This document shows, piece after piece, positions 8,942 through 47,006 of a stretch of DNA of 64,000 bases. Origin of the DNA: Maricaulis maris MCS10 (GTDB lineage Bacteria > Pseudomonadota > Alphaproteobacteria > Caulobacterales > Maricaulaceae); the NCBI RefSeq assembly GCF_000014745.1, contig NC_008347.1, positions 186,001-250,000 on the forward strand, read 5' to 3'. Within the stretch, counting starts at the first letter, position 1; the number at the start of each line of letters is the position of its first letter. The position numbers and the translations under genes were made by a program. Below the pieces are notes generated by a model that was given only the letters and a program-made list of their open reading frames with translations, ran no database searches and was not told the origin of the DNA.

Positions 8942-8969
8942 TGAGGGCCAAACCTTTCCAATCCGTAAT
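8942..8969 (+). promoter_or_regulatory. Putative ECF-type promoter (regulon motif) for pseudoazurin
   Basis: TGAGGG at 8942-8947, 16-bp spacer, CGTAAT at 8964-8969. The same two blocks with the same spacing recur ten more times in this window upstream of other genes. The start codon is 46 bases downstream. Confidence 0.75.
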
Positions 8970-9008
8970 CCCTGTATTGAACGAACAATTTGCAAAGCCA
9001 ATACAGGG
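8970..9008 (+). promoter_or_regulatory. Inverted repeat in the pseudoazurin leader
   Basis: Perfect 10-bp inverted repeat CCCTGTATTG (8970-8979) and CAATACAGGG (8999-9008) separated by 19 bases. It begins one base after the putative -10 and ends 7 bases before the ATG at 9016, so it would sequester the G-rich ribosome-binding region in the mRNA, or act as a regulator site on DNA. Confidence 0.6.
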
Positions 9009-9015
9009 GCTAGTT

Positions 9016-9471
9016 ATGAAAAAGATTGCGTACGCTGCCGTCCTTGCCGGCGTAATGGGACTAACCGGAGCGGGTGCAGCTTGGGCTGAAGATTACGAGG
9101 TCCATATGCTCAATCGTGGCGCTGAAGGCGCCATGGTGTTTGAGCCGGCTTTCCTCGAACTCCAACCCGGTGACACGGTCACCTTCCTGCCAACAAATCC
9201 GAGCCACAATGCGGAAACGATTTCCAGCATGTTGCCTGAGGGTGCGGAACCATTTCGAGGCGCACTCAACCAGGCCGTGACCGTAACCTTTGACGAAGAA
9301 GGCCTCTACGGCATCAAGTGCGCGCCTCACTATGCTGCCGGCATGATCGTCTTGATCGAAGTCGGCGATGGCGAAGTCGTCAACGGCGAGGCCGCCCGCG
9401 CTGCCCGGCATCCAGGTTTGGCGCGTCGGCGTATGAGCGCACTTTTCGACCAACTCGATGCTACTCAATAA
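9016..9471 (+). CDS. Pseudoazurin (periplasmic type I blue copper protein)
   Basis: A 151-residue cupredoxin carrying electrons in the periplasm. The signal peptide MKKIAYAAVLAGVMGLTGAGAAWAE is clear, which sets the start at 9016 rather than at further upstream starts in the same frame. Type I copper ligands fit H64, C102, H105 and M110 in the motif KCAPHYAAGM. The usual pseudoazurin C-terminal region is present. Downstream are a porin, a diheme cytochrome c and a Rieske protein, so it probably shuttles electrons within that set. Upstream lie the repeated promoter motif and a leader hairpin, suggesting metal-responsive expression. Family confidence is high; its redox partners are inferred. 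Confidence 0.92.
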   Translation: MKKIAYAAVLAGVMGLTGAGAAWAEDYEVHMLNRGAEGAMVFEPAFLELQPGDTVTFLPTNPSHNAETISSMLPEGAEPFRGALNQAVTVTFDEEGLYGIKCAPHYAAGMIVLIEVGDGEVVNGEAARAARHPGLARRRMSALFDQLDATQ

Positions 9472-9487
9472 CACGATGGAAAGGCCG

Positions 9488-9513
9488 CCAGGAGGGCCTT
9501 CCAGCCCTCCTGG
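9488..9513 (+). terminator. GC-rich hairpin between pseudoazurin and porin genes
   Basis: Perfect 9-bp stem CCAGGAGGG / CCCTCCTGG with an 8-base loop, 17 bases after the pseudoazurin stop. There is no T run, so it is more likely an attenuator, partial terminator or mRNA-end stabiliser than a full intrinsic terminator. Confidence 0.5.
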
Positions 9514-9530
9514 CCGCAAGTGAGGGACAC

Positions 9531-10826: not shown

Positions 10827-10844
10827 TCAAGGAGGGATTTTTAA

Positions 10845-11507: not shown

Positions 11508-11613
11508 GTGACGTACATTGGCTGAAGGGTTTTCATCTTCACGATCACCAATGTAAGAGCGGGGCGCGCAAGTGCGGGCCCCGCACCTCCTCCCGCAAAT
11601 TACGGAGGTTAAT

Positions 11614-12141: not shown

Positions 12142-12145
12142 GATC

Positions 12146-14902: not shown

Positions 14903-14930
14903 TAAGGGATGGGAGGCGCCGGCGCGTAAT
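14903..14930 (+). promoter_or_regulatory. Putative ECF-type promoter (regulon motif) for the PII-like gene
   Basis: TAAGGG at 14903-14908, 16-bp spacer, CGTAAT at 14925-14930, with GCGCGTAAT context as in other copies. It is directly after the phosphoketolase stop and 32 bases before the next start codon. One mismatch to the usual first block. Confidence 0.65.
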
Positions 14931-14962: not shown

Positions 14963-15271
14963 ATGGCAATGAAGAACCTGACAGCAATTATCAGCCCAGA
15001 GATGGTCGAACCTGTAGAGGAACGGCTACGCCGATTAAGTGTGCCCGGCCTGAGTGTTTCGCACACGAAAGGGTATGGCGCGTACAAGAATTTCTATCAA
15101 CGCGATTTAATGACGACGAAGGCTCGGCTTCAGCTTTTTCTCGCTGAAGAACACGTTGCAGATGTGGTGGATGCTATACGTGATGTTATGGGACCTGCCG
15201 CGGAGGACGGGGGCATCCTAGCCGTATCGCCCGTTGACGGGTTTTATCACCTTTCTGACCAAACGGCGTAG
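14963..15271 (+). CDS. PII-like small regulatory protein
   Basis: A 102-residue protein with the ferredoxin-like PII fold pattern: an initial strand (MKNLTAIISPEMVEPVEERL), a GYGAYKNFY region at the T-loop position, and a C-terminal ILAVSPVDGFYHL strand resembling the GKIFV-P-D--V-IR end of PII. Stand-alone members of this type sit beside metal efflux pumps and carbon-metabolism genes and may bind a nucleotide or metal, but the ligand here is unknown. The ATG directly abuts a perfect 12-bp palindrome CGGAGATCTCCG (14951-14962) that contains the ribosome-binding site, and a copy of the regulon promoter lies upstream. Confidence 0.7.
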   Translation: MAMKNLTAIISPEMVEPVEERLRRLSVPGLSVSHTKGYGAYKNFYQRDLMTTKARLQLFLAEEHVADVVDAIRDVMGPAAEDGGILAVSPVDGFYHLSDQTA

Positions 15272-15365: not shown

Positions 15366-16553
15366 TCAAATATTGGGTAACGTAGAGCGCAGGCCACTCA
15401 CATGCCGCGCAATCACCGCGTTCTCATCGCACCGAACTGCAAAAACTTTTGTGCCCTTAGCGCCTTCGAGATGCGGAGCTTTGTTCCCCGATTTTTTTAA
15501 ATTGCGCATGTCGAGCCCGAAATGAGTAAGTCGCTGGCAAATACGCTCCCGAATCTCTGTGCTGCCGGCACCGATACCCCCTGTAAACACTATTCCGTCC
15601 AGCCCACCTAACGGCACGGTCAAGCCGGCGATGTGCTTCGCGGTATGATAACAAAAGTAGTCTACCGCATCGCGTGCTGAAGGCTGTTCGGCGACGCGCT
15701 CGATGAGTTCATGCATATCGCCAGACAGACCCGAAAGTCCGCTCAATCCAGCATTCTCATTGAGCAATTTTCGAAGCGCGCAGACGGTCATGTCTAAATT
15801 CTCCGCAACATAGAGCGCGGCGCCAAAATCAATGTCGCCGGACCGGGTCGCCATCGGTAGACCGGAGACGGGCGTTAGCCCCATAGTCGTGTCCACGCTT
15901 TGACCGTTGAGAATGGCTGTGGCGGAGGCTCCTGACCCCAAATGCGCGACGATAAGCCGTGAAGGCAATTGCTCTGGCCCCTGGGACTGAAACCAATCCA
16001 AAACATATTCGCAGGACAGGCCGTGAAAACCGTAGCGCCTTACTGGATGCGACACGAAATCTCTGGGCAATCCTGTGTCTTGGGCGAGGTCCGGCAAGTT
16101 ATGATGAAAATGGGTATCGAACACGGCATATTGCGGCAACTTGCCCAGGCGGACGGCGGCCGCATCGAGCGCCTCGAGACTGGCGGGCATATGTAGAGGC
16201 GCAAAGCGGGCGGCACGCTCGAGCTGCGAGCGTGCCGTTGGCCCGATCAACACAGGTTGGCTAAAAAACCCGCCATCATGGACGAATCTGTGTCCGACCA
16301 CCTCAACGTCGTCGAGCCAATGCTCGCTGTCTAACAGGTAGAGAAGGTGGTGAACGGCCTGATGGTGCGTTTCCAGTTTGTATCGCCAGTTTTCTGCCGT
16401 ATTGGCATCTTTCGCTCGGAACTTTATGCGCGCTTCGTTGTGGCCAATCTTCCCGCATGAGATCCTTACGCGTTCGGTTACCCGATTTCCAACCACATCA
16501 TGGACGGCGAGGCGAACGCTCGAGGAACCGCAATTGATCGTCAAAACACGCAT
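15366..16553 (-). CDS. ackA: Acetate kinase
   Basis: A 395-residue ASKHA-fold kinase converting acetyl phosphate and ADP to acetate and ATP. Motifs are NCGSSSVRLAV at the N-terminus, VGHRFVHDG, FDTHFHHNLP, RYGFHGLS, VAHLGSGASA and FTGGIGAGS, all in the usual order. It is the last gene of a minus-strand operon. Its start overlaps the prs stop in a TAATG arrangement, so translation is coupled. Together with the phosphoketolase on the opposite strand it gives an ATP-yielding route from pentose phosphates to acetate. Confidence 0.93.
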   Translation of the reverse strand: MRVLTINCGSSSVRLAVHDVVGNRVTERVRISCGKIGHNEARIKFRAKDANTAENWRYKLETHHQAVHHLLYLLDSEHWLDDVEVVGHRFVHDGGFFSQPVLIGPTARSQLERAARFAPLHMPASLEALDAAAVRLGKLPQYAVFDTHFHHNLPDLAQDTGLPRDFVSHPVRRYGFHGLSCEYVLDWFQSQGPEQLPSRLIVAHLGSGASATAILNGQSVDTTMGLTPVSGLPMATRSGDIDFGAALYVAENLDMTVCALRKLLNENAGLSGLSGLSGDMHELIERVAEQPSARDAVDYFCYHTAKHIAGLTVPLGGLDGIVFTGGIGAGSTEIRERICQRLTHFGLDMRNLKKSGNKAPHLEGAKGTKVFAVRCDENAVIARHVSGLRSTLPNI

Positions 16554-17470
16554 TATTTGGGTGCGTCCGCGTTCGACGAAAGTTCGACCAGTAAATCGCT
16601 ACACCCTGCGGCAACCAAAGGCGCAACGGAGATTTCGTTTGTTGGGTGGCGGACAGTGTCACAAGTAAGGATGTGCCGGGCCCCTGCCTCATGAAGTGCC
16701 AGGAACGCGTCGTCGGCAAAAATAGCGTGAACCCCGATACAAACTGGTGGCGGCAGGCCTGCCTTTTGAAGATTACCAACCGTCTCGATCATCGTGCGGG
16801 CGGTAGAAATGATATCATCAACCAAAATAGGAATACGATCTTGCCATACCTCGACTTTGGGTAGGGAAATCTCGACATCACGATCACCGTGGCGGGTTTT
16901 GTGCAGGACGGTGAACGGCACACCCGCGGTTTGGGCTACAGCACTCACCCATTGTTCGCTCTCGCTGTCGGGTCCGACAATTAAGGCTCCGGGAACGTGC
17001 TCGGCGATCCATGCCGCGATCGTATCGGCAGCGTGGAGCACGCGGTTGGGGATGTCGTAAACCTCCGATAAATCGTGGTAGCGGTGAAGATGCGGGTCAA
17101 TTGTGACAAGGCCGTCAAACCACGCGCTCAGGCTTTTCGCGAAATAGGTAGAAGAGACCGCCTCGCCTGGCTGAAACCGGTTATCCTGACGCATATAGGC
17201 TAAGTATGGTGCGATCAGCACGACACGGCGCGCCCCGAGTTCTCTGGCCGTTGCCGCCGCGAAGACGAGCGGTAGGAATTTCTTGTCCGGTCGATCCAGG
17301 CTGCAAACTAAGACCACTTCGCGGTTTGCTACTGGCGTGTCGAACCGTAGATAAGTCTCGTCATCCGGGAAGGCCTTTGAGAAGAGATGGCCGGTTTCCG
17401 CTGACAATTCCTCTGCGATGCGGCGGGCAATTTGAGCGCTGTCATCAAACGCAAATACTAGCGGGGGCAT
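16553..17470 (-). CDS. prs: Ribose-phosphate pyrophosphokinase-like protein
   Basis: A 305-residue phosphoribosyltransferase-fold protein of the PRPP synthase family. The PRPP loop ILVDDIISTARTMIE is present, as are the DNRFQPGEA(V) and HLHRYHDL segments of the ATP and ribose-5-phosphate sites. It is a divergent, archaeal-like branch rather than the housekeeping form. It overlaps the phosphorylase gene upstream by 13 bases and ackA downstream. PRPP synthases normally make PRPP from ribose-5-phosphate and ATP. Beside an AMP/thymidine phosphorylase, a role in processing ribose phosphates released from nucleotides is plausible, perhaps in reverse, but not shown. Confidence 0.85.
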   Translation of the reverse strand: MPPLVFAFDDSAQIARRIAEELSAETGHLFSKAFPDDETYLRFDTPVANREVVLVCSLDRPDKKFLPLVFAAATARELGARRVVLIAPYLAYMRQDNRFQPGEAVSSTYFAKSLSAWFDGLVTIDPHLHRYHDLSEVYDIPNRVLHAADTIAAWIAEHVPGALIVGPDSESEQWVSAVAQTAGVPFTVLHKTRHGDRDVEISLPKVEVWQDRIPILVDDIISTARTMIETVGNLQKAGLPPPVCIGVHAIFADDAFLALHEAGARHILTCDTVRHPTNEISVAPLVAAGCSDLLVELSSNADAPK

Positions 17471-19017
17471 TGTTCTTCCTCGATCTCGATGATTTCAGGT
17501 TGGCTCGCGAGGTAGTCGTGAGCGTAAGAGAGTTCACCGAGTGACTGGGAATGCAGCGAGTAAAGCGGTTGTCCTTTAACCATTTGGCTTCCCAGTTTCG
17601 CGTGCAACACGATGCCGGCGGCCTTCGACGCTGGCGCACCCGCCAGCTTAGCCGCCTTGGCGAGTCGTCGATTATCGATCCGTCCGACGACACCATCGCG
17701 CGGTGATTGAATGACTTGATAGTGAGGCGCCGTCGGCGGCTCACGAAACCCGCCCTGGGCTTCGCATATTGCTTCAAATGCACGCCATGCCCTGCCATTG
17801 ACCAATAGTTCGGTCGCGAGCTCTGCTCCACGGCCTGCCGGCGCTGCCTGGCCCATTTCTAGAAGCTCGCCGGCAAGCAGAGTCGCTTGAACGGTTAGGT
17901 CTGGAACGTTGTGTCCCTCATTGTTGAGAACGGCCAGCACATCCCACGCCTCCAATGCCGGCCCAATACCACGTCCAACCGGTTGCGAGCCATCCGTCCG
18001 CATAATCTTCAAGTTGAGACCAAGATTGGAGCCTACGCGCGCGAAGAGCCCCTCTAGTCTTGCTGCCGCTTCTTCAGTTCGCACTTTGGCGGTCGGGCCG
18101 ACGGGCATATCGATCACCAAATGAGTAGCGCCCGCCGCGATTTTCTTCGACAAGACCGAGGCGACTAACTGGCCATCGCTGTCGATGTCGAGCGCGCGTT
18201 CTATTCGGATCAAGGTGTCGTCCACGGGGCTCAACGCAACCGCACCACCCCAAACGATACATCCGCCCACCGTCTCAACGACGCGCCGCATGGCCGAAAC
18301 ATCAAGCTCTACCGGCGCGAGAGTCTCCATTGTATCGGCGGTGCCCGCTGGTGACGTAATCGCCCGCGAGGATGTTTTGGGCATGGTCAAGCCAGCGGCC
18401 ACGCAGATAGCGACAACAATTGGTGTCGTGCGATTGCCCGGTAACCCGCCAACGCAATGCTTGTCCACGATCGGTGCGCGTCCCCAGTCTAAACGCTGGC
18501 CGACATTGACCATCGAGAGTGTGAGATCACGGATTTCCTCGAAGCTCTGTTCGTGGGCAGCACTGGCGGTGAGAAATGCAGAAAGATGAATATCAGAAAA
18601 CCGGCCTGCTGCGATGTCTCCGACGATTGCGTCCAGATTATTCTGGTCCAACGGCTCGCCAAAAATCTTGGCTCTAACAGCGCTCAATGACAAAAGCGGC
18701 GCAGGGTGAATAAGTCGAACTGGGTCGCCCTCGTTCAATTGCAATCTTAGCCAAGCGGTTTCAGACAGACCGATCTGACCCGGCGACAACAGATCGGTTA
18801 CAACCAGATTTAGGGTCGCAATGATCGCTTTGTTTGACGGACCGCTTACCTTTATACGCGCGTGGTTATTGAACCCTTCCGCTCGGCAAATGTGACAGTC
18901 GGCACGCATATAGATAACGGCGTGCTCATGCGTATCGATCCCTAACCTTCGAGCTGTGAGCGTGTTTTTCTCGCTCAACTCTGCCGGCATTGCACTGATG
19001 TCAATCATTTTCGTCAT
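17458..19017 (-). CDS. Thymidine/AMP phosphorylase, long form
   Basis: A 519-residue pyrimidine-nucleoside-phosphorylase family enzyme. The catalytic core shows VDKHCVGGLPGN (phosphate loop) and SPAGTADTMETLAPVELD. The N-terminal extension of about 90 residues before the core is a feature of AMP phosphorylases (DeoA of archaea) and of the bacterial long thymidine phosphorylases; ordinary bacterial DeoA has about 440 residues. It would phosphorolyse a (deoxy)nucleoside or nucleoside monophosphate to base and ribose-1-phosphate or ribose-1,5-bisphosphate. It overlaps its neighbours by 13 bases (prs) and 4 bases (MBL nuclease), in a tightly coupled operon. Which substrate it uses cannot be decided from sequence alone. 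Confidence 0.85.
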   Translation of the reverse strand: MTKMIDISAMPAELSEKNTLTARRLGIDTHEHAVIYMRADCHICRAEGFNNHARIKVSGPSNKAIIATLNLVVTDLLSPGQIGLSETAWLRLQLNEGDPVRLIHPAPLLSLSAVRAKIFGEPLDQNNLDAIVGDIAAGRFSDIHLSAFLTASAAHEQSFEEIRDLTLSMVNVGQRLDWGRAPIVDKHCVGGLPGNRTTPIVVAICVAAGLTMPKTSSRAITSPAGTADTMETLAPVELDVSAMRRVVETVGGCIVWGGAVALSPVDDTLIRIERALDIDSDGQLVASVLSKKIAAGATHLVIDMPVGPTAKVRTEEAAARLEGLFARVGSNLGLNLKIMRTDGSQPVGRGIGPALEAWDVLAVLNNEGHNVPDLTVQATLLAGELLEMGQAAPAGRGAELATELLVNGRAWRAFEAICEAQGGFREPPTAPHYQVIQSPRDGVVGRIDNRRLAKAAKLAGAPASKAAGIVLHAKLGSQMVKGQPLYSLHSQSLGELSYAHDYLASQPEIIEIEEEQCPR

Positions 19018-20365
19018 GACAACTCGACCTTCTCATCCAGCACGGGCGCGTGGCACGGCCAGCTCAATTCTTGCTCGATACGAGCTTTCAGCGACGCCGT
19101 TGCGACAGGTTCACCATGTGTGATGAAGGTCATCTCCGGCGCAGATCCAAACTGGCTCAACCATGCGATGATTTCATCAGCATCGGCGTGAGCAGAGAGC
19201 GAATCGAGATTATGAACGCTTGCTCGAACGGGCAGGTTTTGCCCGTGGATTTTAACGCTCTGTGCGCCATCCACGATCGCGCGTCCTCGCGTGCCTGCAG
19301 CCTGAAAGCCTGTGAACAAAAGTGCATTTCGAGGGTCTGACACGTAGTTCTTGATGTGATGTACGACACGCCCGCCGGTCGCCATTCCACTCGCGGAGAT
19401 GATGATTTTGGGCATCCGGTTGGTGGTCAGGGCTTTTGAATCTTCTGTCGAGCGCACATAGGTCGCGACATCACAGGCTTGGCGGCACTCGGCCGCGCTA
19501 AGGCGATGCCCGTCAATATGCTCGCAAAAAAGCTCGCTGGCATTGATGGCCATCGGACTGTCCAAGAAAATTGGCAGATCCGGTATGCGTTTGTCGCGCT
19601 TGAGCTGACTGAGGTGGTAGAGCAGAGATTGAGCGCGCCCAACCGCAAAGGCAGGCACAATAATCGTGCCGCCACGCTTGGCGGTTATCGACACGATCTC
19701 GGCGAGGAGATCTTCAACCTCAATGTCTTTGTGTTTTCGGTTTCCGTACGTAGACTCAACGATTAGATAATCCGCGTGGGTGACGGTTTCTGGCCTCAAC
19801 ATCGTCGCACTATTGGGTCGCCCTAGATCGCCGGAGAAGACTGCTGTTTTTCCATTGGGTAGGTCCAGCTCGATGACAGCTGCGCCAAGGATATGGCCAG
19901 CAGGATGAAACCTGGCCGCGAAGCCGTGGCCGAGTTCTTGAAAATCGCCAAAGTCCAAACCCTTGAATAATGCTAGGGCATCTTCGGCATCTGCACGGGT
20001 GTAAAGTGGCTTGGCCGGGCGATGGCGAGACGTGCCGTGTCTATTCGCAAACTCCGCATCTTTTTCCTGCAAGAACCCACTATCCGGTAGTAGGATACGA
20101 CAGAGGTCGACTGTTGCTCGTGTCGCATACACCGGTCCAGCAAAACCGGATTTTGTCAAAACGGGTAGGTAGCCGGAATGATCGATATGAGCGTGGGTGA
20201 GAAGCACCCCTCTTAGTTCCGACGGATTGATCGCCGGATGTCGCCAATTTCTCTCTCTTAACGACCGATGACCTTGGAAGAGCCCGCAATCAATCAACCA
20301 TTTGTGCGTTCCAAGATCGAGGCGGTATTTGGATCCGGTCACTGTTCCTGCCGCGCCTAAGAACC

Positions 20366-20381
<16 letters not shown>
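19014..20381 (-). CDS. MBL-fold/beta-CASP nuclease
   Basis: A 455-residue metallo-beta-lactamase fold protein with the beta-CASP insertion, like CPSF73/Ysh1-type RNA exonucleases. Visible motifs are LLTHAHIDHSGYLP (zinc ligands), HPAGHILGAAVIEL, VESTYGNRKH and the late KIHGQNLPVRASVHNLDSLSAHAD and FITHGEP. Family members cut RNA in the cytoplasm. It overlaps the phosphorylase gene by 4 bases and ftsH by 16 bases. In this operon an RNase would supply nucleotides to the phosphorylase, an inference from order only. Confidence 0.88.
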
Positions 20382-22189
<1,808 letters not shown>

Positions 22190-22208
22190 CGGGCCCTCCT
22201 CCATCCTG

Positions 22209-22236
22209 CTTACGCACGAATTTTCGCGACCCCTCG
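22209..22236 (-). promoter_or_regulatory. Putative ECF-type promoter (regulon motif) for the ftsH operon
   Basis: On the minus strand: CGAGGG (22236-22231), 16-bp spacer, CGTAAG (22214-22209). Two mismatches to the consensus but exact spacing, 19 bases before the ftsH start. It is back to back with the copy at 22284-22311. Confidence 0.6.
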
Positions 22237-22283: not shown

Positions 22284-22311
22284 TGAGGGAAAGACTCCCG
22301 CCAGGCGTAAA
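22284..22311 (+). promoter_or_regulatory. Putative ECF-type promoter (regulon motif) for the DUF2933 operon
   Basis: TGAGGG at 22284-22289, 16-bp spacer, CGTAAA at 22306-22311, 44 bases before the ATG at 22356. Divergent partner of the minus-strand copy upstream of ftsH. Confidence 0.72.
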
Positions 22312-23205: not shown

Positions 23206-23894
23206 GCGTGCAACAAAATCGATCGGTTATTCTGCTCACTAACGAACAAGAAAAACCACATTTTGAAATATTTTTGAGGCGGCAAAACCCAGCATTGGAG
23301 GTGGTTTTTTGCGATACGTTGGAGTCGTTGAGCAGCGAAGTAGATCGACGATCTGGACATGTGCGTCTCATTGCTTTCCTCACGGACCTAATCGTCCCTA
23401 AACCAATCCTCGAACAGCTCGTGTTGACGCCCTACAATATCCATCCCGGGCCTCCGGAATATCCGGGCTCTCATCCAGAAAGCTTCGCAATATGGAATGA
23501 AGCGCAGCGCTACGGCGTAACAGCGCATGAAATGAAAGAACGCGTCGATGAGGGTCCAATCGTACTGCTAGACACCTTCGATATGCCTTCATTACCCGTT
23601 CGCGGCGATCTTGCTGACCGCACCTATGCCCACGCAGTGAATCTATTTTCCGTTTTGGGTACCCATTGCGCTGTAAATGATAACGATTTGCCGCGCCTAC
23701 CAGTGCACTGGTCCGGGATTAAACGGACGAACGCGGATTTTCATCGACTGTGTATGCAGCCTGCCGGGTTGTTGCCCGCTGATCAGGATCGATTGGTCCG
23801 CGCGTGCGCAGAAGATGTCATCGCCCCACGGCTCTCTGAACGGCATCACGATTCGGATCTCTTGGCATTCCAAACTGATATGTTGCTTTTTTGA
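23202..23894 (+). CDS. Stand-alone formyltransferase-domain protein
   Basis: A 230-residue protein related to the catalytic domain of methionyl-tRNA formyltransferase and other 10-formyl-THF enzymes. The segment TPYNIHPGPPEYPGSHPESFA supplies the conserved Asn and His (N-x-H), and VDEGPIVLLD supplies the conserved Asp of the D-x-G-x-I motif. The tRNA-binding C-terminal domain is absent, so it is not the housekeeping Fmt. It overlaps the ICMT-like gene by 4 bases and belongs to a metal-responsive operon by its promoter. It could formylate an amino group on a small molecule or protein. The substrate is unknown. Confidence 0.72.
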   Translation: MSVQQNRSVILLTNEQEKPHFEIFLRRQNPALEVVFCDTLESLSSEVDRRSGHVRLIAFLTDLIVPKPILEQLVLTPYNIHPGPPEYPGSHPESFAIWNEAQRYGVTAHEMKERVDEGPIVLLDTFDMPSLPVRGDLADRTYAHAVNLFSVLGTHCAVNDNDLPRLPVHWSGIKRTNADFHRLCMQPAGLLPADQDRLVRACAEDVIAPRLSERHHDSDLLAFQTDMLLF

Positions 23895-23919
23895 GGGGTG
23901 CGGCGGTTTGACGCGTAAT
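23892..23919 (+). promoter_or_regulatory. Putative ECF-type promoter (regulon motif) for the DUF2231-cnrYXH operon
   Basis: TGAGGG at 23892-23897 (overlapping the stop of the preceding gene), 16-bp spacer, CGTAAT at 23914-23919. The genes that follow are closely packed as far as the ECF sigma gene, so the sigma factor could drive its own operon from here. Confidence 0.72.
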
Positions 23920-24804: not shown

Positions 24805-25920
24805 GTGAAGACCTACCCACAAAACCTTCCTAGCCTGACTCGCATGCGCTTTTTCGCGGCGTTATGGGTCGTGTTTTACCATTGGCGAGAGCCCTGGGTG
24901 ATCGACATTGATGCGACCTCGCAGATATTCGCTATGGGTCGGTTTGGTGTGGATCTGTTTTTTATTCTCTCAGGATTCGTGCTCACTCACGTCTATGTGG
25001 CAGCCCGCGAAGAGGGCCGATTTAATTTCGGCCGCTTCATCATCGCACGATTTGCGCGCATTTATCCGCTTCATATTGCTACCCTCGCTTTTTTGGGCCT
25101 TGTCGCGATCGGTGCCGCGCAATTAGGCGTCCCGTTTGAGCAAGACCGCTTCCCGCTGCAAGATCTGCCAGCTCATCTCTTGATGGTGCATGCTTGGGGC
25201 TTTGCTCCGAATTTTGGATGGAACGGGCCCTCTTGGTCGATCAGTGCGGAGTGGTTCGCCTATCTCGCTTTCCCAGCTTATCTCATGGTGGCTGTTGCGC
25301 TAAAAAACCGTCCTTTGATCCTGCTTACCTTAGCTGTGGCGCTATTTTTTGTACTCGATCAGGTCCACCTGCGTTTCTTTGGCGAGACGTTACCGATGGC
25401 GACGGAACGGTATGGTGTCATCCGGATAATCCCAGAATTCCTCATTGGGGTAGGGCTGTATCGCCTCGGCCAGAAGTGGCAGCTGCCTAAACCGATAGCT
25501 AGGGCTAGCTTGGCGGTTGTTGTGGCCCTTTACCTGTTTGGCTCACATATCGCAGTCGACGACCGTGTTCTTGCGCTGTTGGGCGCACCGTTGATCTTCT
25601 TACTCGCAGAGCTCGATCGTCGCGCCGTGACGAAAACCAACCATGGCTTTTTCGTGTATCTTGGAGATGTCTCCTACGCCATTTACATGATCCACGTGCC
25701 GTTCTTCATGGTGTCATTCAATCTGCTTCAAGATGTCTTGGGTGTGATCGATGAAACAATGTCGACAAGCCTGTTTGCTGCGTTGCTGGTGATCATGATT
25801 GGGGCATCGGCTGTTACTTACCAAATCATTGAAAAACCCGCACGCACCGGCATTCGCGCCTTGGGCGACCGCCTTTTGAAAACACCAACTAAATCTTCGA
25901 TTGAGGGGAAACGACTATGA
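24805..25920 (+). CDS. Acyltransferase 3 (OafA/YrhL-like)
   Basis: A 371-residue integral membrane acyltransferase with about ten helices, starting at GTG 24805 four bases after the previous stop, with GGAGG upstream. It contains the N-terminal LTRMRFFAALWVVFYHW, GVDLFFILSGFVL and GPSWSISAEWFAYLAFP blocks of family 3. Members O-acylate cell-surface polysaccharides or lipids from the cytoplasmic side. This is one of three such genes (one broken) in the island, so surface modification may be part of the metal response. The stop overlaps the next start (ATGA). Confidence 0.88.
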   Translation: MKTYPQNLPSLTRMRFFAALWVVFYHWREPWVIDIDATSQIFAMGRFGVDLFFILSGFVLTHVYVAAREEGRFNFGRFIIARFARIYPLHIATLAFLGLVAIGAAQLGVPFEQDRFPLQDLPAHLLMVHAWGFAPNFGWNGPSWSISAEWFAYLAFPAYLMVAVALKNRPLILLTLAVALFFVLDQVHLRFFGETLPMATERYGVIRIIPEFLIGVGLYRLGQKWQLPKPIARASLAVVVALYLFGSHIAVDDRVLALLGAPLIFLLAELDRRAVTKTNHGFFVYLGDVSYAIYMIHVPFFMVSFNLLQDVLGVIDETMSTSLFAALLVIMIGASAVTYQIIEKPARTGIRALGDRLLKTPTKSSIEGKRL

Positions 25921-26366: not shown

Positions 26367-26388
26367 GGGGAGTGAAAGGAGTATGACT

Positions 26389-26706
26389 ATGAAAGACCGA
26401 GAGCTTGATAAACTGCTAGAGGCGGTCTCGCGGCCGCCGGAGATGGACCAAAGAGCCTTTCGCGATGCGGTCTGGGCAAAAATTGACACTCGCGAAAGCT
26501 GGGTTGATCGAGTTCGCAACGCTTTGCGACCTTTAATGCCTGCGGTCGCGTTGCGCTCGGCACCAGCGGCTTTAGCGTTAGTAGTGGGCGGCTTGTCGGG
26601 TGCGGCAATGGCGCAGTCGGACCCCCATGATGATCTGGCCATATTTGATACCAATTCATCCTACTCGATTGTCGCGATGATCGCGCCATCTAAGGATAAG
26701 CATTGA
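26389..26706 (+). CDS. CnrY-like putative membrane anti-sigma factor
   Basis: A 105-residue protein. The N-terminal 55 residues are charged and cytosolic in character (MKDRELDKLLEAVSRPPEMD), then there is a single hydrophobic helix (APAALALVVGGLSGAAMA) and a periplasmic tail of about 25 residues. AAGGAG has better spacing to the ATG at 26389 than to the one at 26383. Size, topology and position before a CnrX-like sensor and an ECF sigma factor copy the cnrYXH arrangement, where CnrY holds the sigma factor at the membrane. I see no strong sequence match, so the assignment rests on context. Confidence 0.65.
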   Translation: MKDRELDKLLEAVSRPPEMDQRAFRDAVWAKIDTRESWVDRVRNALRPLMPAVALRSAPAALALVVGGLSGAAMAQSDPHDDLAIFDTNSSYSIVAMIAPSKDKH

Positions 26707-27140
26707 TGCTGCGCGCCGGCATCGTCGCCTCCGTTCTTGGCGTTGTAGGCGGCTTCCTCGGTGTTTGGTTGGGCATCGCTGTCTTTGACGACAGCGATCA
26801 CGCGGCCACGAATCTTCATGCGATCGTGCATGACGAACTTCATTTGTCGTCTCAGCAAGAGGTGGCTATTGAAAGCCTTGAGACCGCGTTCGCAATCGTC
26901 CGCGAGAGCTATGAAGCGGAAATGGAGGAAGCGCGGCGCGAAATTGGCGCAGCGCTTTTGCGCGATCAGGCGCTTTCGGACGATGTGGCGCGGGCTGCTG
27001 AGGATTTTCATACGGCTATGGGGGGGCTACAGATGGAGACCCTCAATCACATCCTATCCATGCGTGCCGAACTCGACCCCGATCAAGTGCAAGAGTTTGA
27101 TCTGAGGCTTGCGCAGGCCTTTCATGCCGAAACCGAATGA
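26706..27140 (+). CDS. CnrX-like periplasmic metal sensor
   Basis: A 144-residue protein with one N-terminal membrane helix and a helical periplasmic domain of the heavy-metal-sensor (CnrX/Spy-like) type. Counted from the ATG at 26706, H38, H42, E59, H115 and M119 reproduce both the identity and the spacing of the CnrX metal ligands as I know them (H42, H46, E63, H119, M123: HxxxH, Glu 17 residues on, and HxxxM 73 residues on). CnrX senses Co/Ni in Cupriavidus; the neighbours here are copper genes, so the metal is open. The start overlaps the previous stop (TGATG) and the end overlaps the sigma gene by 17 bases. Confidence 0.82.
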   Translation: MLRAGIVASVLGVVGGFLGVWLGIAVFDDSDHAATNLHAIVHDELHLSSQQEVAIESLETAFAIVRESYEAEMEEARREIGAALLRDQALSDDVARAAEDFHTAMGGLQMETLNHILSMRAELDPDQVQEFDLRLAQAFHAETE

Positions 27141-27690
27141 GTTGACGGATAGCGAGCGTGAAGATGCTCGCCTGGCTCTTGACGCGCAAGCAGGAAGCCA
27201 TGCCGCGTTCAATCGCCTGATGGACAAACATCAAGGAACCGTCTTACGGTTTTTGATGGGCCATATTCGCAATTCAGATGACGCCCATGATGTCGCGCAG
27301 GACACCTTCGTGGCTGTTTTCAAAAATCTTCACCGGTTCGATTTGGGTCGCCCATTTCTCGCCTGGCTTTTTGTCATCGCGCGGAATAAGGCCCGCGACC
27401 ACCATCGTCGCCGAAAAACTCTAAATTGGGTTGGTCTTGAGAGTGAACGAGACGATTTCGTAGCAGAGGCACCGGATCCGGAAGCCACTGCTTTGAGCTC
27501 GGGCGAATTATCCAGAGCGCAGGACGTCATCAGCAAAATGCCCGAGGGGCTGCGCACACCGTTATTGCTTTCCGTTGTGGATGACCTGCCTTTGGCTCAG
27601 ATCGGTGAAATCATGGGCGTGTCTGAGAAGGCGGTTGAGGTGCGGATTTATCGGGCGCGCAAGCTGCTCAAAGAGCATTTTTCCACGTGA
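27124..27690 (+). CDS. ECF sigma factor, CnrH-like
   Basis: A 188-residue sigma-70 family factor with region 2 (DAHDVAQDTFVAVFKNLHRFD) binding the -10 element and core polymerase, and region 4 (LAQIGEIMGVSEKAVEVRIYRARKLLK) binding the -35 element. The ATG at 27124 lies inside the end of the sensor gene, giving translational coupling; a TTG at 27141 is the alternative. Encoded with an anti-sigma-like and a periplasmic sensor protein, it should be released on metal binding. It is the only ECF sigma seen in the window and the best candidate to read the repeated TGAGGG-N16-CGTAAT motif, one copy of which starts at its own stop codon. Confidence 0.9.
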   Translation: MPKPNELTDSEREDARLALDAQAGSHAAFNRLMDKHQGTVLRFLMGHIRNSDDAHDVAQDTFVAVFKNLHRFDLGRPFLAWLFVIARNKARDHHRRRKTLNWVGLESERDDFVAEAPDPEATALSSGELSRAQDVISKMPEGLRTPLLLSVVDDLPLAQIGEIMGVSEKAVEVRIYRARKLLKEHFST

Positions 27691-27715
27691 GGGATGTGCC
27701 CGCGGCTTACGTAAA
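27688..27715 (+). promoter_or_regulatory. Putative ECF-type promoter (regulon motif) for copAB
   Basis: TGAGGG at 27688-27693, its TGA being the stop of the sigma gene, then a 16-bp spacer and CGTAAA at 27710-27715. The copper oxidase gene starts 117 bases downstream, the longest leader among the copies. Confidence 0.7.
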
Positions 27716-33194: not shown

Positions 33195-33706
33195 AGCCTG
33201 CCTTTCTCATATCAGACTCCGCGAACCAACACACTGTGGGCTTTTTGATCAGAGCAAGGCGTTTACGCTGGTGTCGGCTGTTCCCCTCATGCAGCTGCAG
33301 TGGCGCGGACCACATGTATATGAGAACGAGCTCGCGTGGATCCAGAATTTGACTACCTCATTCAGGTCGATCATCGCCATCGTTGCCGGGCAGTATTAGA
33401 TGAATGCAAGCCTATTGTCCGTTTGGCGCCGCGATCCGCGCTTCAACTCGTGTATGACGCGGCAGTCGTCCCTCCTCGCCGGTCGAAATCGGGGCTGTCG
33501 ATGCGGAAGAAGCGCTCAATAATGGTAACGACCTATCCCGTTACTTCGCCGTGACTGCTAGGCCGCACCGTCCAGGGCGCAATGAAACTCTCAAATCCTT
33601 GACCTGGATTAACGAGCCAGGTCCCCGGTGCCTCCCGCGGTGAAAACCAGGTCATCGAATTTTTGGGAAAGATCTCTGAATTGAATGCGCCGATGGCACG
33701 TTCTGA
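33195..33706. other. Intergenic stretch with no convincing gene
   Basis: The only sizeable open frame is 33336-33554 (+, 72 codons), with no good ribosome-binding site and no recognised family; I do not call it. No repeat or promoter motif was identified. Confidence 0.5.
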
Positions 33707-34005: not shown

Positions 34006-34033
34006 ATTACGCAGCGCTCAGCCCCTCCCCTCA
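34006..34033 (-). promoter_or_regulatory. Putative ECF-type promoter (regulon motif) for the DUF5676 gene
   Basis: Minus strand: TGAGGG (34033-34028), 16-bp spacer, CGTAAT (34011-34006). Exact consensus and spacing. Confidence 0.75.
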
Positions 34034-34209
34034 GAAAAAGTGACCCCTTGGCAGTCGCTATTCGATCCGGCCAGCGTCTAGCCGATTAGATTGAGGGGTA
34101 AGAGAGCGGTCGTCGTAAGTCCCTTGCGCATCACTCTTGGTGTTCGGCTCCACCAGTCGTGCCCAATGGGCGCGCTAGAAGAAATGGGGTGCCGAGAAAC
34201 ACGTCATTT

Positions 34210-39620: not shown

Positions 39621-39648
39621 ATTACGCTCCCCATACAGGTTTCCCTCG
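39621..39648 (-). promoter_or_regulatory. Putative ECF-type promoter (regulon motif) for the zinc-ribbon gene
   Basis: Minus strand: CGAGGG (39648-39643), 16-bp spacer, CGTAAT (39626-39621). One mismatch in the first block. Confidence 0.66.
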
Positions 39649-41524: not shown

Positions 41525-41588
41525 GGCGCAAAATAACTTGAGTAAAACAGTCGGATTTAATCGTTTGGTTGGTTCTGGGAACTAACTT

Positions 41589-41616
41589 TGAGGGAAGCGT
41601 CCCTTTGTCGCGTAAT
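41589..41616 (+). promoter_or_regulatory. Putative ECF-type promoter (regulon motif) for the acyltransferase
   Basis: TGAGGG at 41589-41594, 16-bp spacer, CGTAAT at 41611-41616. It rules out start codons upstream of about 41620 for the following gene. Confidence 0.73.
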
Positions 41617-41653
41617 CACAAGAGGCGACCGGAGGAGGGGCGACATTCAAACG

Positions 41654-42745
41654 GTGAAAACAATCGGTCAAGCCTATTCAGGGCGAGACAACAGACTCAC
41701 TCCCATCCGTTTCGTGCTTGCTACAGCGGTATTGGTGGAGCATGCGATCATTGTTACCCAAGGCCCGCTCCCACCCCCTCCTCTGGCGGTGAATGGGTGG
41801 TCGCTCAGCTATGCGGCGGTCAATGCTTTCTTTATCCTGAGCGGGTTTTTGATAGCGGACAGCCTCGAGCGACGGGCAGATATTTTTACCTATACAGCGT
41901 CTCGCGCGCTGCGGATCTTGCCCGCACTGGTTTTCCTGTCCTTAGCTGCTGTATTCATCTTTGGGCCATACTTCACCGAGATGACGATGGCGGAATATTG
42001 GGCTAGCGGACAAACGTGGATGTTTCCGGTCCAGGTACTTGGTTTTCTGGACACCTCGCAAGGCCCGGCTGGAATTTTTACTCAATTGCCTTGGGCCGGC
42101 GAATTCTCAGCCACGCTGTGGACTCTTCGATACGAGATGATCGCCTATGTCGCCGCCGCGATCATTTTCTTTTCGCCAATTCCCTGGAACAAGCACACGC
42201 ACCTCGTCCTTTTCGTGGTGACAGCGAGCGCATACTTGGCGCTAAGCCTGCTTTGGAGTGATGCTCCGGCCCTCATCATGAGTTCAGCGCGCCTGTCCGC
42301 GGCCTTTACCTTGGGCATGGTCGTACACGGCTGGCGGCACTCGGTTCCCGTCGTGCCCTGGCCGGCGCTCGTAGCGCTGCCGCTTTGGCTGTTGGCGGGT
42401 GACGCCCCTTGGGCTGAGCCGCTGCTAAACATCGCTTTAGGAGCAATAATTTTCTGGTTTGCATTTGCCAGAATGGGGGGGCTACCGACCTGGTCGAAAA
42501 TTCCCGACTGGTCCTATGGGATTTACATTTGGCACTATCCAATCATGCAGGCCGTTTTGTACTTTAACTTAGAAGCCGACCCTCTTCTCATCGGCGCCAT
42601 CTCCTTGCCGGTTTCATTTTTGATCGCAGCCTTGTCATGGTCGTTTATCGAAAAGCCGAGTCTCCGGTTGAAAGGCCGCGCTGGAGAGGGGCTGCGGGCG
42701 ATGTTTGGGCGCAAAACAAAGCGCCTGTCATCCGCCGATCCGTGA
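41654..42745 (+). CDS. Acyltransferase 3 family membrane protein
   Basis: A 363-residue membrane acyltransferase (LTPIRFVLATAVLVEHA, AVNAFFILSGFLIADSL, WSYGIYIWHYPIMQAV, SWSFIEKPSL). The frame is open further upstream, but the promoter motif at 41589-41616 makes GTG 41654 the best start, with GGAGGAGGGG about 13 bases before it. It is not closely similar to the acyltransferase at 24.8 kb, but it is clearly homologous along its second half to the broken gene at 45930-46604. It probably acylates a surface glycan or lipid. Confidence 0.83.
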   Translation: MKTIGQAYSGRDNRLTPIRFVLATAVLVEHAIIVTQGPLPPPPLAVNGWSLSYAAVNAFFILSGFLIADSLERRADIFTYTASRALRILPALVFLSLAAVFIFGPYFTEMTMAEYWASGQTWMFPVQVLGFLDTSQGPAGIFTQLPWAGEFSATLWTLRYEMIAYVAAAIIFFSPIPWNKHTHLVLFVVTASAYLALSLLWSDAPALIMSSARLSAAFTLGMVVHGWRHSVPVVPWPALVALPLWLLAGDAPWAEPLLNIALGAIIFWFAFARMGGLPTWSKIPDWSYGIYIWHYPIMQAVLYFNLEADPLLIGAISLPVSFLIAALSWSFIEKPSLRLKGRAGEGLRAMFGRKTKRLSSADP

Positions 42746-42771: not shown

Positions 42772-42799
42772 TGAGGGTATCGGGAGTTTCGAGCGTAAT
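42772..42799 (+). promoter_or_regulatory. Putative ECF-type promoter (regulon motif) for the DUF411 gene
   Basis: TGAGGG at 42772-42777, 16-bp spacer, CGTAAT at 42794-42799, 53 bases before the ATG at 42853. Confidence 0.74.
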
Positions 42800-42852: not shown

Positions 42853-43317
42853 ATGATCGACCGCCGCAGTCTTCTACTTCAATCCATTGGCGCGATAGGG
42901 CTCGCTTCTATCGCTGCTCCGGCTGTCTTCGCGGACAACTCAATCGTGGTTTACAAATCGCGGACATGTGGATGCTGCAACGCATGGATCGACCATCTAG
43001 AAGCGGCTGGTTTTTCGGTTCAGGCTCGCAATTTGGCAGACGTGACCGCGATTAAGACGCGCTACAATGTGCCCCAAGAAATGTGGTCTTGCCACACCGC
43101 GATTGTGAACGACTTCGTCATAGAGGGACACGTTCCCGCTCAAGATATCCGTCGACTTCTAGAGCAACGCCCTCAAATTGTTGGTTTGGCGGTTCCAGGC
43201 ATGCCGGCCGGGTCCCCCGGTATGGAAGTTGATGGCTATAGAGAGGCTTATGATGTCTGGGCTTTTGGCGACGGCCAACTTGAAGCCTTCGCCCGGTACA
43301 GCCAGCAGCAATTGTAA
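42853..43317 (+). CDS. DUF411 metal-binding protein
   Basis: A 154-residue exported protein with a twin-arginine-like start (DRRSLLLQSIGAIG) and a thioredoxin-like DUF411 domain. The motif SRTCGCCNAW has cysteines at 39, 41 and 42, and MWSCHTAIV adds a conserved Cys-His, which together form the probable metal site. DUF411 proteins are common in copper and silver resistance loci and are thought to bind copper in the periplasm. GGAGAA precedes the ATG. A regulon promoter lies upstream. Confidence 0.88.
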   Translation: MIDRRSLLLQSIGAIGLASIAAPAVFADNSIVVYKSRTCGCCNAWIDHLEAAGFSVQARNLADVTAIKTRYNVPQEMWSCHTAIVNDFVIEGHVPAQDIRRLLEQRPQIVGLAVPGMPAGSPGMEVDGYREAYDVWAFGDGQLEAFARYSQQQL

Positions 43318-43727: not shown

Positions 43728-43885
43728 CCATGTGCGAAAGCTAATCCATCATCACGCCTAATCGTCCAATTACCCAAGAAGCGAATGAACGCCTCACGAC
43801 CAAATCAGCACTAGATCCGCAAAGAAGTTCGGAGCGATTGTCTTCGACGATTACGTTGCGGCGATTAAGTATGGAGAGCACGAAT

Positions 43886-44719: not shown

Positions 44720-44780
44720 CTCGGCACCGACGAACTGAAAGCTATGAGTGAGAAATATCGATTTCTGGTGATCAGGCCCT

Positions 44781-45158
44781 ATGCGTTTATGGTGTGCAAT
44801 AATTCTGACGGTGCTAATTGGGCTTTCCAGCCCAATGGATTCGCACGCCATCGACCAACATGAAAACGATGATCATGACGCTTTTGGTCTCATCTTGGCT
44901 TTCGCGGAAGACGAAGGCGCTCATATTGAACGAGTTGGCTTCAACCATCACGAGGATGGCCACGAGCATGAGGGTGCGAAGAGCGAGGACAGCCACCACA
45001 CTGGTCACATTCATCTCGGATACGATCATTCGACGATGCTACCGATCACCGGACAGCAGTTGTTGGTCGCGGAAACTCCTATTCGCTTCGGCATAGCCAA
45101 TCAGCGCGCTCCTTCCGGTCGGCATTGTCAGACAAACTTCGGCTTGAGCGCGAAGTAG
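44781..45158 (+). pseudogene. Exported His-rich protein, C-terminus replaced by IS sequence
   Basis: An open frame of 125 codons with a signal peptide (MRLWCAIILTVLIGLSSPMDSHA) and a His-rich middle (FNHHEDGHEHEGAKSEDSHHTGHIHLGYDHS). Its last 11-13 codons lie inside the IS6-type element (from about 45121), so the natural C-terminus has been lost or replaced. The remaining part could still be exported and bind metal. It starts 61 bases after the DUF4198 gene and may be in its operon. Confidence 0.7.
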
Positions 45159-45922
45159 CGGTTTTGTAGCCTCCGCCGATGCGTAACCCGTTCAAATATT
45201 TCAAAACCTCGCCAGAGATTATCCGCCTTGCGGTGATGATGTACATCCGCTTTCCGCTCTCGCTTCGAAACGTGGAAGATCTGCTTCACGAACGGGGCAT
45301 CGATATCACCCACGAAACCGTGCGTTTTTGGTGGAACCGGTTCGGCCCGCTGTTCGCCAGTTCGATCCGCAAACGCCGCGTGGCGAATGGCTCTTACTCG
45401 AACTGGGCCTGGCACCTCGACGAGGTTTTCGTGAAGATCAATGGTGAGCTTCATTATCTCTGGCGGGCTGTTGATCACGAAGGTGAAGTGCTCGAAGCGT
45501 ATGTGACGAAGCGCCGTGATCGCAAGGCAGCGTTGAGATTTCTGCGCAAGGCGATTAAGCGATACGGCCGTCCCGAGGCGATCGTTACCGACAAGTTGCA
45601 GTCCTATAAATCCGCGTTTCGCGAGCTTGGAATGAGCCGTCGCCAAGAGACGGGGAGGTGGCTCAATAACCGAGCCGAAAACTCGCATGTACCCTTCCGG
45701 CGCCGCGAGCGGGTGATGGGCAAATTTCGAAGTTTCGAGACTCTGCAGAAATTCGTTTCAACCCACTCTTCGGTCCACAATCATTTCAGCCACGAACGCC
45801 ATTTGAGCCGTCGAGAAATCTTCAAGGAAAACCGTTCTGCCGCCCTGGCCGAATGGCGTCAACTCGCGGCTTGATCGGGGCGCGATCCGTGACATTCGAG
45901 ACCGGTTCGCTTTAGTCTGACA
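45126..45922 (+). mobile_element. IS6-family insertion sequence
   Basis: About 0.8 kb, the usual IS6 size, containing one transposase gene. The ends have imperfect inverted repeats: TGTCAGACAAAC at 45126 on the left and, reading inward from the right end at 45922, TGTCAGACTAAAG. The right end continues into GTCTGACACCACC, the same sequence seen at the end of the decayed copy at 47784. Flanking 8-mers (GTCGGCAT and CCACCCGA) do not match, so there is no target duplication, as expected after recombination or deletion. Confidence 0.82.
45179..45874 (+). CDS. IS6-family transposase
   Basis: A 231-residue DDE transposase. The HTH part (SLRNVEDLLHERGIDITHETVRFW) is followed by the catalytic residues in WHLDEVFVKI (first Asp), IVTDKLQSY (second Asp) and NNRAENSH (Glu). 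Length and motifs are full, with no frameshift, so the element may be active. The next remnant of the same family lies 1.3 kb downstream. Confidence 0.93.
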   Translation: MRNPFKYFKTSPEIIRLAVMMYIRFPLSLRNVEDLLHERGIDITHETVRFWWNRFGPLFASSIRKRRVANGSYSNWAWHLDEVFVKINGELHYLWRAVDHEGEVLEAYVTKRRDRKAALRFLRKAIKRYGRPEAIVTDKLQSYKSAFRELGMSRRQETGRWLNNRAENSHVPFRRRERVMGKFRSFETLQKFVSTHSSVHNHFSHERHLSRREIFKENRSAALAEWRQLAA

Positions 45923-45929
45923 CCACCCG

Positions 45930-46604
45930 AGCCAGGGTCCCGCAGGCATCTTTTCGGAAAATCCTTGGGCGGGCGAGTTCTCGGCGACTCTCTGGACCTT
46001 GCGCTATGAGGTGCTGGCCTATGCCGGTGCTGCGCTGATTTTCTTCTCTCCGCTGCCTTGGGGGCGGGGCGCTAAACTTTTCCTTTTTGTCGGAGTGACC
46101 GCCGCTTATTTGGTCGTCCGGTCCTTCTGGCCCGATGCGCCGGCCATGATCGAGAGCGGCCTGCGTCTGGCGTCGGCGTTCACTCTGGGCATGCTGGTTC
46201 ATGTTTGGCGTGAAAAGATTCCGGTTCTTCCTTGGCCGACCCTAATTGTATTGCCGGTCTGGATTGCGTTGGGCAGTCATCCCTTGGCAGAGGTATTTCT
46301 CAACCTCACACTGGCGTCCATATTGTTTGCGGTCGCCTTTGCAGGGCTGGGGCGCTGGCCGACCGGCGCCCGCCTGCCCGACTGGTCCTATGGTATTTAT
46401 ATCTGGCATTATCCGGTCATGCAGGTGGTGCTGTACTGGTATCCAGCGGCGGACCCGCTGGAGGTCGCCATTTATTCAATTCCCGTTACGCTTTTGATTT
46501 CCGCCGCGTCCTGGTCCTGGATCGAGAAGCCCAGCTTGGCGGGCAAGGCTGGATTGGGCCGCTGGTTGGAGCTGGCTTTCAAGGGGATGCGGCCATCCCC
46601 CTGA
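45930..46604 (+). pseudogene. 3' half of an acyltransferase gene cut by the IS element
   Basis: The frame is open from the IS end. Its first residues, SQGPAGIF and WAGEFSATLWTLRYEV, align with residues in the middle of the intact acyltransferase at 41654-42745, and the match runs to the natural C-terminus (WSYGIYIWHYPVMQVV, SWSWIEKPSL). The 5' half and promoter are missing. A TTG at 45999 could start a shorter product but that would lack the N-terminal active-site region. The segment looks richer in G+C than the intact paralogue, suggesting a different source. Confidence 0.85.
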
Positions 46605-46615
46605 GGCCGGCATGG

Positions 46616-46942
46616 TCAGTGGTGTGATAATTCGGCGTCAGCGATCTGGAACCCGTCCGCCGTATTCACGACGGTAATCATCAGGTGTGCACCTGGCCGG
46701 AAGAGATCGAAATCCACGGTCTCAGCTACAGAGAAGCGCATCGTCATGGCCGACATGCCCAGCTCGGTGAGAGCTTCATGACTGACGACAGCAGTGCGCC
46801 CATCAGCGTCTGCTGTCCGCACTTCCGCTGCAACCGTTGAGCTGGCCTCGGTTTGCGCGTGATGGTTTCCATCGTGGCCAGGCTGATCATGGTGGTCGAC
46901 TGTGGTGAAAAACAGGGCAGACGCGGCAATAAGCGTGATCAT
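46616..46942 (-). CDS. CusF-like periplasmic copper-binding protein
   Basis: A 108-residue protein. The ATG at 46942 gives a short signal peptide (MITLIAASALFFTT), then a His-rich stretch (DHHDQPGHDGNHHAQ) and a CusF-type OB-fold core with HEALTELGMSAMTMRFSV, in which the Met pair AMTM and an upstream His are the copper ligands. The Trp that stacks on Cu(I) in CusF (NWPAMTM) is replaced here. It lies on the strand opposite the acyltransferase remnant, and a perfect regulon promoter copy ends 36 bases upstream. Confidence 0.82.
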   Translation of the reverse strand: MITLIAASALFFTTVDHHDQPGHDGNHHAQTEASSTVAAEVRTADADGRTAVVSHEALTELGMSAMTMRFSVAETVDFDLFRPGAHLMITVVNTADGFQIADAELSHH

Positions 46943-46978
46943 GGGGTCTCTTTTCCGGGTTGACGAAGGGACGGCAGC

Positions 46979-47006
46979 ATTACGCGCCAACTGGCGTCGC
47001 CCCTCA
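46979..47006 (-). promoter_or_regulatory. Putative ECF-type promoter (regulon motif) for the CusF-like gene
   Basis: Minus strand: TGAGGG (47006-47001), 16-bp spacer, CGTAAT (46984-46979). Exact consensus. It lies beyond the IS junction, so the regulon extends to both sides of it. Confidence 0.75.

Follow-up and report, generated by a model that had tools for sequence, protein, structure and literature searches.

Putative promoters of a CnrH-like sigma factor in a copper island of Maricaulis maris MCS10

Described systems and the Maricaulis locus

The closest described counterpart of the locus analysed here is CnrYXH, encoded on plasmid pMOL28 of Cupriavidus metallidurans, with NccYXH as its relative. 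According to PMC9045368, the cnrY and cnrC transcripts start 24 and 25 bases before the respective genes. We compared this system with a 64,000-base stretch of Maricaulis maris MCS10 (the window; bases 186001-250000 of a genome assembled as one contig of 3,368,780 bases, 3.37 Mb), in which a two-block element, TGAGGG-N16-CGTAAW, recurs before genes of a copper island and before the operon of an extracytoplasmic function (ECF) sigma factor that resembles CnrH. Positions are those of the window unless given as genome positions. The cnrY and cnrC promoters of pMOL28 read CAAGGG-N17-CGTATA and CGAGGG-N17-CGTATA, and the distance from CGTATA to the start codon is 30 and 31 bases. Given the transcript starts at 24 and 25 bases, the +1 position is the seventh base after CGTATA at both promoters. 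Judged by its bases, the island motif is a CnrH-type promoter with a 16-base spacer, and this equality with the blocks of the CnrH promoters is the strongest reason for reading it as sigma-dependent.

The likeness to CnrYXH extends to the Y-X-H gene order, the homology of the sigma factors, a CnrX-type sensor with five ligands, the combination of GAGGG- or AAGGG-type blocks with CGTA, and the placement of promoters before Y and directly after H. In contrast to the nickel- and cobalt-responsive CnrYXH, the island system has copper genes as neighbours, a spacer of 16 instead of 17 bases, CGTAAW instead of CGTATA, and 14 putative promoters where two have been described for CnrH; its Y protein is poorly conserved. 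Among the loci compared below, the 17-base spacer was found on pMOL28 (L125) and on a plasmid of Caulobacter sp. FWC26 (L129), and nearly all other loci use 16. Spacer length may track sub-groups of the sigma factor.

Two further systems are similar in part. CorE of Myxococcus xanthus, a copper ECF sigma factor according to PMC10141476 and PMC8999054, is likewise tied to copper genes, including those for a multicopper oxidase and a copper ATPase. CorE senses copper by its own Cys-rich C-terminal domain, whereas the island sigma factor has no such extension. The Cys-rich domain and the CxC linker motif of CorE-type factors (formerly ECF44) are both missing from this protein of 188 amino acids, which contains no cysteine. 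RpoQ-RsqA of C. metallidurans also combines an ECF sigma factor with a predicted membrane anti-sigma factor near copper-induced genes, namely the copper- and gold-induced gig genes. It differs in being a sigma/anti-sigma pair, and the accessible sections of PMC10304878 neither give evidence for an RpoQ-dependent start of gig nor mention a CnrX-type sensor. Promoter models for 29 ECF subgroups are shown in a figure of Rhodius 2013. A copper-linked CnrYXH system was not found in the literature searched, as far as the accessible parts of these sources extend, and the motif may already be in print at the level of the group.

The element and its sigma factor across genomes

The initial annotation had listed eleven sites of the TGAGGG-N16-CGTAAT type and proposed that they form the regulon of a CnrH-like ECF sigma factor encoded in their midst. 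This proposal is supported by comparative sequence evidence, and the mapped CnrH promoters share both blocks; the regulon is revised to 14 sites with weaker members at a PII-like gene and an ftsH operon. All eleven sites are present in the sequence, but the one placed at 22231(-) actually spans 22209-22236. Eight of them, not seven, carry TGAGGG with CGTAAT or CGTAAA (8942, 22284, 23892, 27688, 34006, 41589, 42772 and 46979). The copies are real, yet the list had overlooked 33262(-), 34092(+) and genome position 184195, which brings the set to 13 sites in the window and one just outside.

The exact pattern TGAGGG-N16-CGTAAW occurs ten times in the genome, and all ten copies lie between genome positions 184195 and 233006 (49 kb). 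About 0.5-0.7 copies are expected genome-wide by chance (at the G+C content of the window, 0.57, or an assumed 0.627), and the exact blocks with spacers of 18, 19, 20 or 21 bases have no copy in the genome. With up to one mismatch, 21 matches were found, 13 in the island (ten of them exact) and eight scattered, compared to 12 for the reversed pattern. The looser form YRAGGG-N16-CGTA gave 22 matches, 14 in the 49-kb island and eight elsewhere, compared to 11 when reversed. When up to two mismatches are allowed, the window holds 23 matches, compared to a mean of 6.87 and a maximum of 17 in 100 shuffles. The motif is real, and its matches outside the island are at background level.

Amid these sites lies the Y-X-H operon, with overlapping genes on the plus strand. 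The product of the last gene (27124-27690) had been named a CnrH-like ECF sigma factor, and CnrH is indeed its closest solved chain in the PDB (4cxf, E=2e-21); it comprises sigma2 and sigma4 domains and is 32% identical to CnrH in the alignment. The gene before it (26703-27140) encodes X, a putative periplasmic metal sensor of the Metal_resist family (PF13801) with NccX and CnrX as best PDB matches (NccX 4clv, E=2e-12) and 30% identity to CnrX. The columns of CnrX H42, H46, E63, H119 and M123 are invariant in all seven aligned sequences, X included. His42, His46, Glu63 and His119 are metal-ligand positions of CnrX. Met123 of CnrX is needed for signalling, according to PMC7689651. The first gene (26386-26706) occupies the position of cnrY, and its product Y, a putative membrane anti-sigma factor, has a CnrY-like size and a hydrophobic stretch recognised by eye. 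An exact site at 23892 precedes the sigma factor's own operon, which implies autoregulation. Very probably, the sites represent the -35 and -10 elements of promoters that are read by this CnrH-like sigma factor of the island.

To follow the motif beyond M. maris, we used 80 loci that were picked by alignment of the sigma protein alone, as the best 80 of at least 550 confirmed relatives. As this choice was blind to the motif, the set carries the argument. It covers Maricaulis, Marinicauda, Hyphobacterium, Caulobacter, Hyphomonas, Sphingobium, Sphingomonas, Novosphingobium and others, including three bins labelled Verrucomicrobiales or Verrucomicrobiia. In these loci, YRAGGG-N16-CGTA was found 259 times, whereas any other spacer length between 10 and 23 bases gave 0-7 matches; reversed sequences gave 12 matches with the 16-base spacer and 3-29 across the whole range of spacers. 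At least one match is present in 78 of the 80 loci, the two misses being contigs of 3.9 and 3.2 kb, and in 67 loci the motif stands before the Y-X-H operon or directly after the sigma gene. Dereplication to 35 loci with sigma identity under 75% left 106 matches in 34 loci (other spacers 0-4), and 66 of these are located no more than 2 kb from the sigma gene. Site pairs in the representative loci are divergent in 21 cases and convergent in one. Read as sequence features, these comparisons establish a (T/C)(G/A)AGGG-N16-CGTA code confined to sigma loci, along with the Y-X-H operon and the ligands of X. Representative loci carry 0-6 sites, compared to seven in the same 20-kb span of the island and 14 in its 49 kb, and the island regulon looks unusually large and island-confined. 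Of the 106 sites, 90 have a G directly ahead of CGTA, and in 60 the second position behind GAGGG is occupied by T; the complete element could accordingly be TGAGGGAT-N13-GCGTAWT.

The idea that the repeats are instead operators for a DNA-binding regulator of the island has some footing, as genes of the CueR, ArsR, XRE and AraC types are all present and one site precedes the XRE gene. Such an operator is highly improbable for an element that is asymmetric, directed towards genes, held at one strict spacer and equal to the CnrH promoters minus one spacer base. Moreover, the motif follows the sigma gene, which was the sole criterion for picking the 80 loci.

A second comparison covered 137 genomes of the family, 38 of which, M. 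maris MCS10 included, carry a sigma orthologue, clearly set apart by its score (about 95-411 bits compared to 65 or less). Of 81 exact matches, 29, from 15 genomes, are no more than 30 kb away from an orthologue, where 0.5 would be expected, so the motif tracks the sigma factor. The remaining 52 are close to the wrong-spacer background of 57.5 per spacer and split into 16 off-locus matches in the 38 orthologue-bearing genomes and 36 in the 99 genomes without an orthologue, which is background only. Reversed sequences gave 22 matches of the exact pattern in the 137 genomes; wrong-spacer controls were preferred because this control is the weaker one. In 40 family stretches, 114 matches of at least 10.5 bits compare with ten in reversed sequences, in a scan that was not motif-blind (L104 and L122 were picked for motif matches, and the borders of the G024 stretch were moved so that matches fell inside it). 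One contig (G008:C2) carries two sigma orthologues, each with an exact motif about 1.3 kb away (17523 and 109278; L103 and L096). An identical 28-base exact site occurs in two related genomes, at 19224 of L104 (G029:C3), about 0.75 kb from the contig end, and at 18149 of L095 (G024:C4).

These counts also bear on whether another ECF sigma factor of the genome reads the motif, with the CnrH-like gene as a bystander. Seven ECF-like matches at E<=0.001 are found in the M. maris genome, and cross-recognition between ECF sigma factors is known in general. Nevertheless, the 99 orthologue-free genomes remain at background although 134 of the 137 genomes have some ECF match, and the motif adjoins the orthologue's operon in most of the 80 loci. 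We therefore regard a foreign reader as very improbable and the island's own sigma factor as the preferred candidate.

Genes behind the element and the inducing metal

The genes that follow the sites give the regulon its link to copper. The exact site at genome position 184195-184222, 1.8 kb left of the window, is located ahead of a Cus-type efflux operon, in which a small gene and a TolC-like gene are followed by CusB-like, CusA/CzcA-family, CueR and copper P-type ATPase genes (78-7519, plus strand). Further exact sites on the plus strand precede the pseudoazurin gene (site 8942-8969; gene 9016-9471, TIGR02375 above cut-off), which is followed on the same strand by porin, cytochrome c, Rieske and phosphoketolase genes; a DUF2933 - PEMT/ICMT-type methyltransferase - formyltransferase-like row (22284-22311); the DUF2231 - acyltransferase - SnoaL - Y - X - sigma operon (23892-23919); and, at the stop codon of the sigma gene (27688-27715), copA (TIGR01480 above cut-off) and copB (PF05275). 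Two more precede a membrane acyltransferase gene (41589-41616; start inside the frame 41588-42745) and a DUF411 gene (42772-42799; gene 42853-43317). Exact minus-strand sites stand before an XRE-type helix-turn-helix gene (33262-33289, overlooked earlier; gene 33194-32619), a DUF5676 gene (34006-34033; gene 33976-33707) and a CusF-like gene (46979-47006; gene 46954-46616). One-mismatch sites precede a YgaP-like transmembrane - MMPL transporter - LolA-like - 475-aa gene row (34092-34119, plus strand, divergent to 34006 and also overlooked), a small zinc-ribbon-like gene (39621-39648, minus strand; gene 39575-39369, weak DUF6300 match below cut-off) and a PII-like gene (14903-14930, plus strand, TAAGGG..CGTAAT; gene 14963-15271). 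The weakest site, CGAGGG..CGTAAG at 22209-22236 on the minus strand, is divergent to 22284 and precedes the row from ftsH to acetate kinase (22189-15366).

As had been proposed, the sites fall into gaps before genes: with the chosen starts, all 13 window sites are intergenic, with an overlap of at most three bases, and such gaps make up 9.1% of the stretch. This placement depends on the choice of gene starts. If the longest frames were used, the sites at 8942, 23892 and 41589 would fall entirely within the 5' part of the frame of their own gene, and 12 bases of the site at 46979 would do so. Distances to the gene start, previously given as 18-120 bases, measure about 19-117 bases for the eleven earlier sites, and 34092 is farther from its gene (about 105-147 bases).

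CueR, the copper ATPase, the multicopper oxidase CopA and pseudoazurin score above curated cut-offs. CopB, CusF and DUF411 match Pfam families, the first two above the Pfam cut-offs, and the pump of the RND type was placed in the CusA/CzcA family next to a CusB model match below cut-off. For the genes behind the motif elsewhere, the 80 loci were joined with 46 family and plasmid stretches to 126 loci, some of them duplicated and not all motif-blind, and island proteins served as the only queries. For 160 of the 379 motif matches in these loci, a downstream relative of an island gene was identified, and several island gene families thus carry the motif elsewhere. Without dereplication, the motif precedes relatives of CopA in 63 loci, of DUF2231 in 23, of the second acyltransferase (41588-42745) in 16, of DUF411 in ten, of CusF and PepSY in seven each, of the porin in six, of the copper ATPase in five and of others in at most four. 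The expectation that the motif would precede copper genes in sigma-bearing relatives is thereby borne out. The island contains three membrane acyltransferase genes or fragments (24805-25920, 41588-42745 and 45999-46604, the third named by eye), which are candidates only for a role in copper stress.

It is conceivable that the operon is a nickel/cobalt CnrYXH system that happens to adjoin copper genes. X keeps the five ligands of the nickel and cobalt sensor CnrX, and the mixed CusA/CzcA family is the only placement of the RND pump. This is nonetheless unlikely in view of the recurrence of the motif before relatives of copA, DUF411 and cusF, and of six plasmid sigma loci in which copper oxidase and CopB are annotated and CopC and/or CopD are present in every case. 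Judging from the named target genes, the inducing metal is most likely copper, and the system looks like a CnrYXH-type switch that moved to copper and is common in Alphaproteobacteria.

Several observations weigh against a copper-responsive sigma regulon. The -35 block of cnrY was read by eye and lies below the scan threshold, while Y matches no Pfam or NCBIfam family and is just 13% identical to CnrY. Of the 38 orthologue-bearing family genomes, five of them less than 85% complete, 15 have an exact CGTAAW match within 30 kb of the sigma gene; the other 23 have no exact CGTAAW match near the sigma gene, with looser forms in most of the stretches scanned. The -10 endings of distant relatives differ, mostly being CGTATT, CGTATA and similar, and G029 (98% complete), whose site is identical to one in G024, yielded no sigma orthologue. 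Furthermore, 219 of the 379 motif matches have no tie to a relative of any island gene, and copper specificity rests on gene neighbours, while the same ligand set senses nickel and cobalt in CnrX.

Metabolic operons and the meaning of the island

The two weak sites leave the extent of the regulon less certain than its core. The site at 22209 precedes one row of genes (15366-22204) for FtsH, a beta-CASP MBL protein, an archaeal-type AMP/thymidine phosphorylase, a PRPP synthetase-like protein and acetate kinase. This site and that at 14903 are both degenerate, and they may well be chance look-alikes that leave the PII-like gene and the ftsH-acetate kinase operon outside the regulon, a possibility to which we give somewhat less than even weight. 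In line with it, the motif is absent from four of four family stretches in which the metabolic module lies away from a sigma gene, and on the Sphingomonas plasmid pNXO2, where the module is near one, the divergent promoter region lacks it. On the other hand, four of the 12 degenerate-only YRAGGG-N16-CGTA matches of the genome fall in the island, which makes up 1.45% of it, so that the four are jointly improbable by chance, and the two sites lie 32 (14903) and about 19 (22209) bases before their genes, as would fit promoters. In Hyphomonas UBA5111, the motif lies 54 bases ahead of a plausible ATG of a sigma-linked phosphoketolase gene (the start projected by BLAST lies 20 bases upstream of the site end, the query start being early), and porin-cytochrome-Rieske-PII-like rows begin with the motif in L108, L111 and L183, that is, in two genomes, as L108 and L183 are from the same one. 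That the module is generally under the motif was ruled out by the four sigma-unlinked stretches and pNXO2. In the island, the pseudoazurin promoter reads towards phosphoketolase. Taken together, sigma control of the metabolic operons appears to stand at somewhat under even odds.

Relatives of the phosphorylase occur on 164 plasmid records, and the sphingomonad copper loci L211 and L213 adjoin either the MBL-phosphorylase-PRPP module (pNXO2) or a cluster of F-type ATPase and acetate kinase genes.

By analogy with CnrYXH, the membrane protein Y would hold the sigma factor in the absence of metal. X would bind a periplasmic metal ion, most likely copper, by its His/His/Glu/His/Met site, and metal-bound X would lead to release of the sigma factor, which would then drive its own operon and copA-copB. 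It would also drive the Cus-type efflux operon with the copper ATPase, the genes for pseudoazurin, CusF and DUF411, and those for DUF2231, DUF5676, the acyltransferase and others. More tentatively, and with rather less than even confidence, it may be speculated that a portable regulon for copper survival, with sigma factor, sensor and about 14 promoters travelling in one island, has the CnrH-type sigma factor as its master switch, and that copper induces detoxification together with an energy bypass. The bypass would consist of pseudoazurin-cytochrome-Rieske carriers, phosphoketolase and acetate kinase, AMP phosphorylase and PRPP synthetase, and FtsH, and it would sustain the supply of ATP and nucleotides when respiration and glycolysis suffer from copper.

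Mobility of the island is plausible from its composition and surroundings. Its G+C content is 0.53-0.58, compared to 0.60-0.66 in eight of nine 3-kb bins on the right side (235001 to 262000); on the left side, the values of 0.57-0.60 are low as well. Directly left of the island is a gene for a serine recombinase (Resolvase/Recombinase; L022 9006-10691), and DDE_Tnp_IS240 transposases are encoded at genome positions 183430-184128 and at 45179-45874 of the window. A search for tRNA genes in the window and in two flanking stretches gave none. As the sigma gene and all recognisable promoters are contained in one 49-kb island of low G+C content, with outside matches at background, the regulon could travel as a unit. 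If the island does carry its own transcription code, a response of many operons would be acquirable in one transfer.

For the wider family, the element provides a sharp putative promoter code for a widespread copper-linked sigma factor, which would help to link genes without a known function (DUF2231, DUF411, DUF5676, DUF2933 and the membrane acyltransferase) with copper stress in many Alphaproteobacteria. Identical sensor ligands, together with an almost identical promoter, are found next to nickel genes in the one lineage and next to copper genes in the other, so that the evolution of metal choice would be testable in a single periplasmic sensor.

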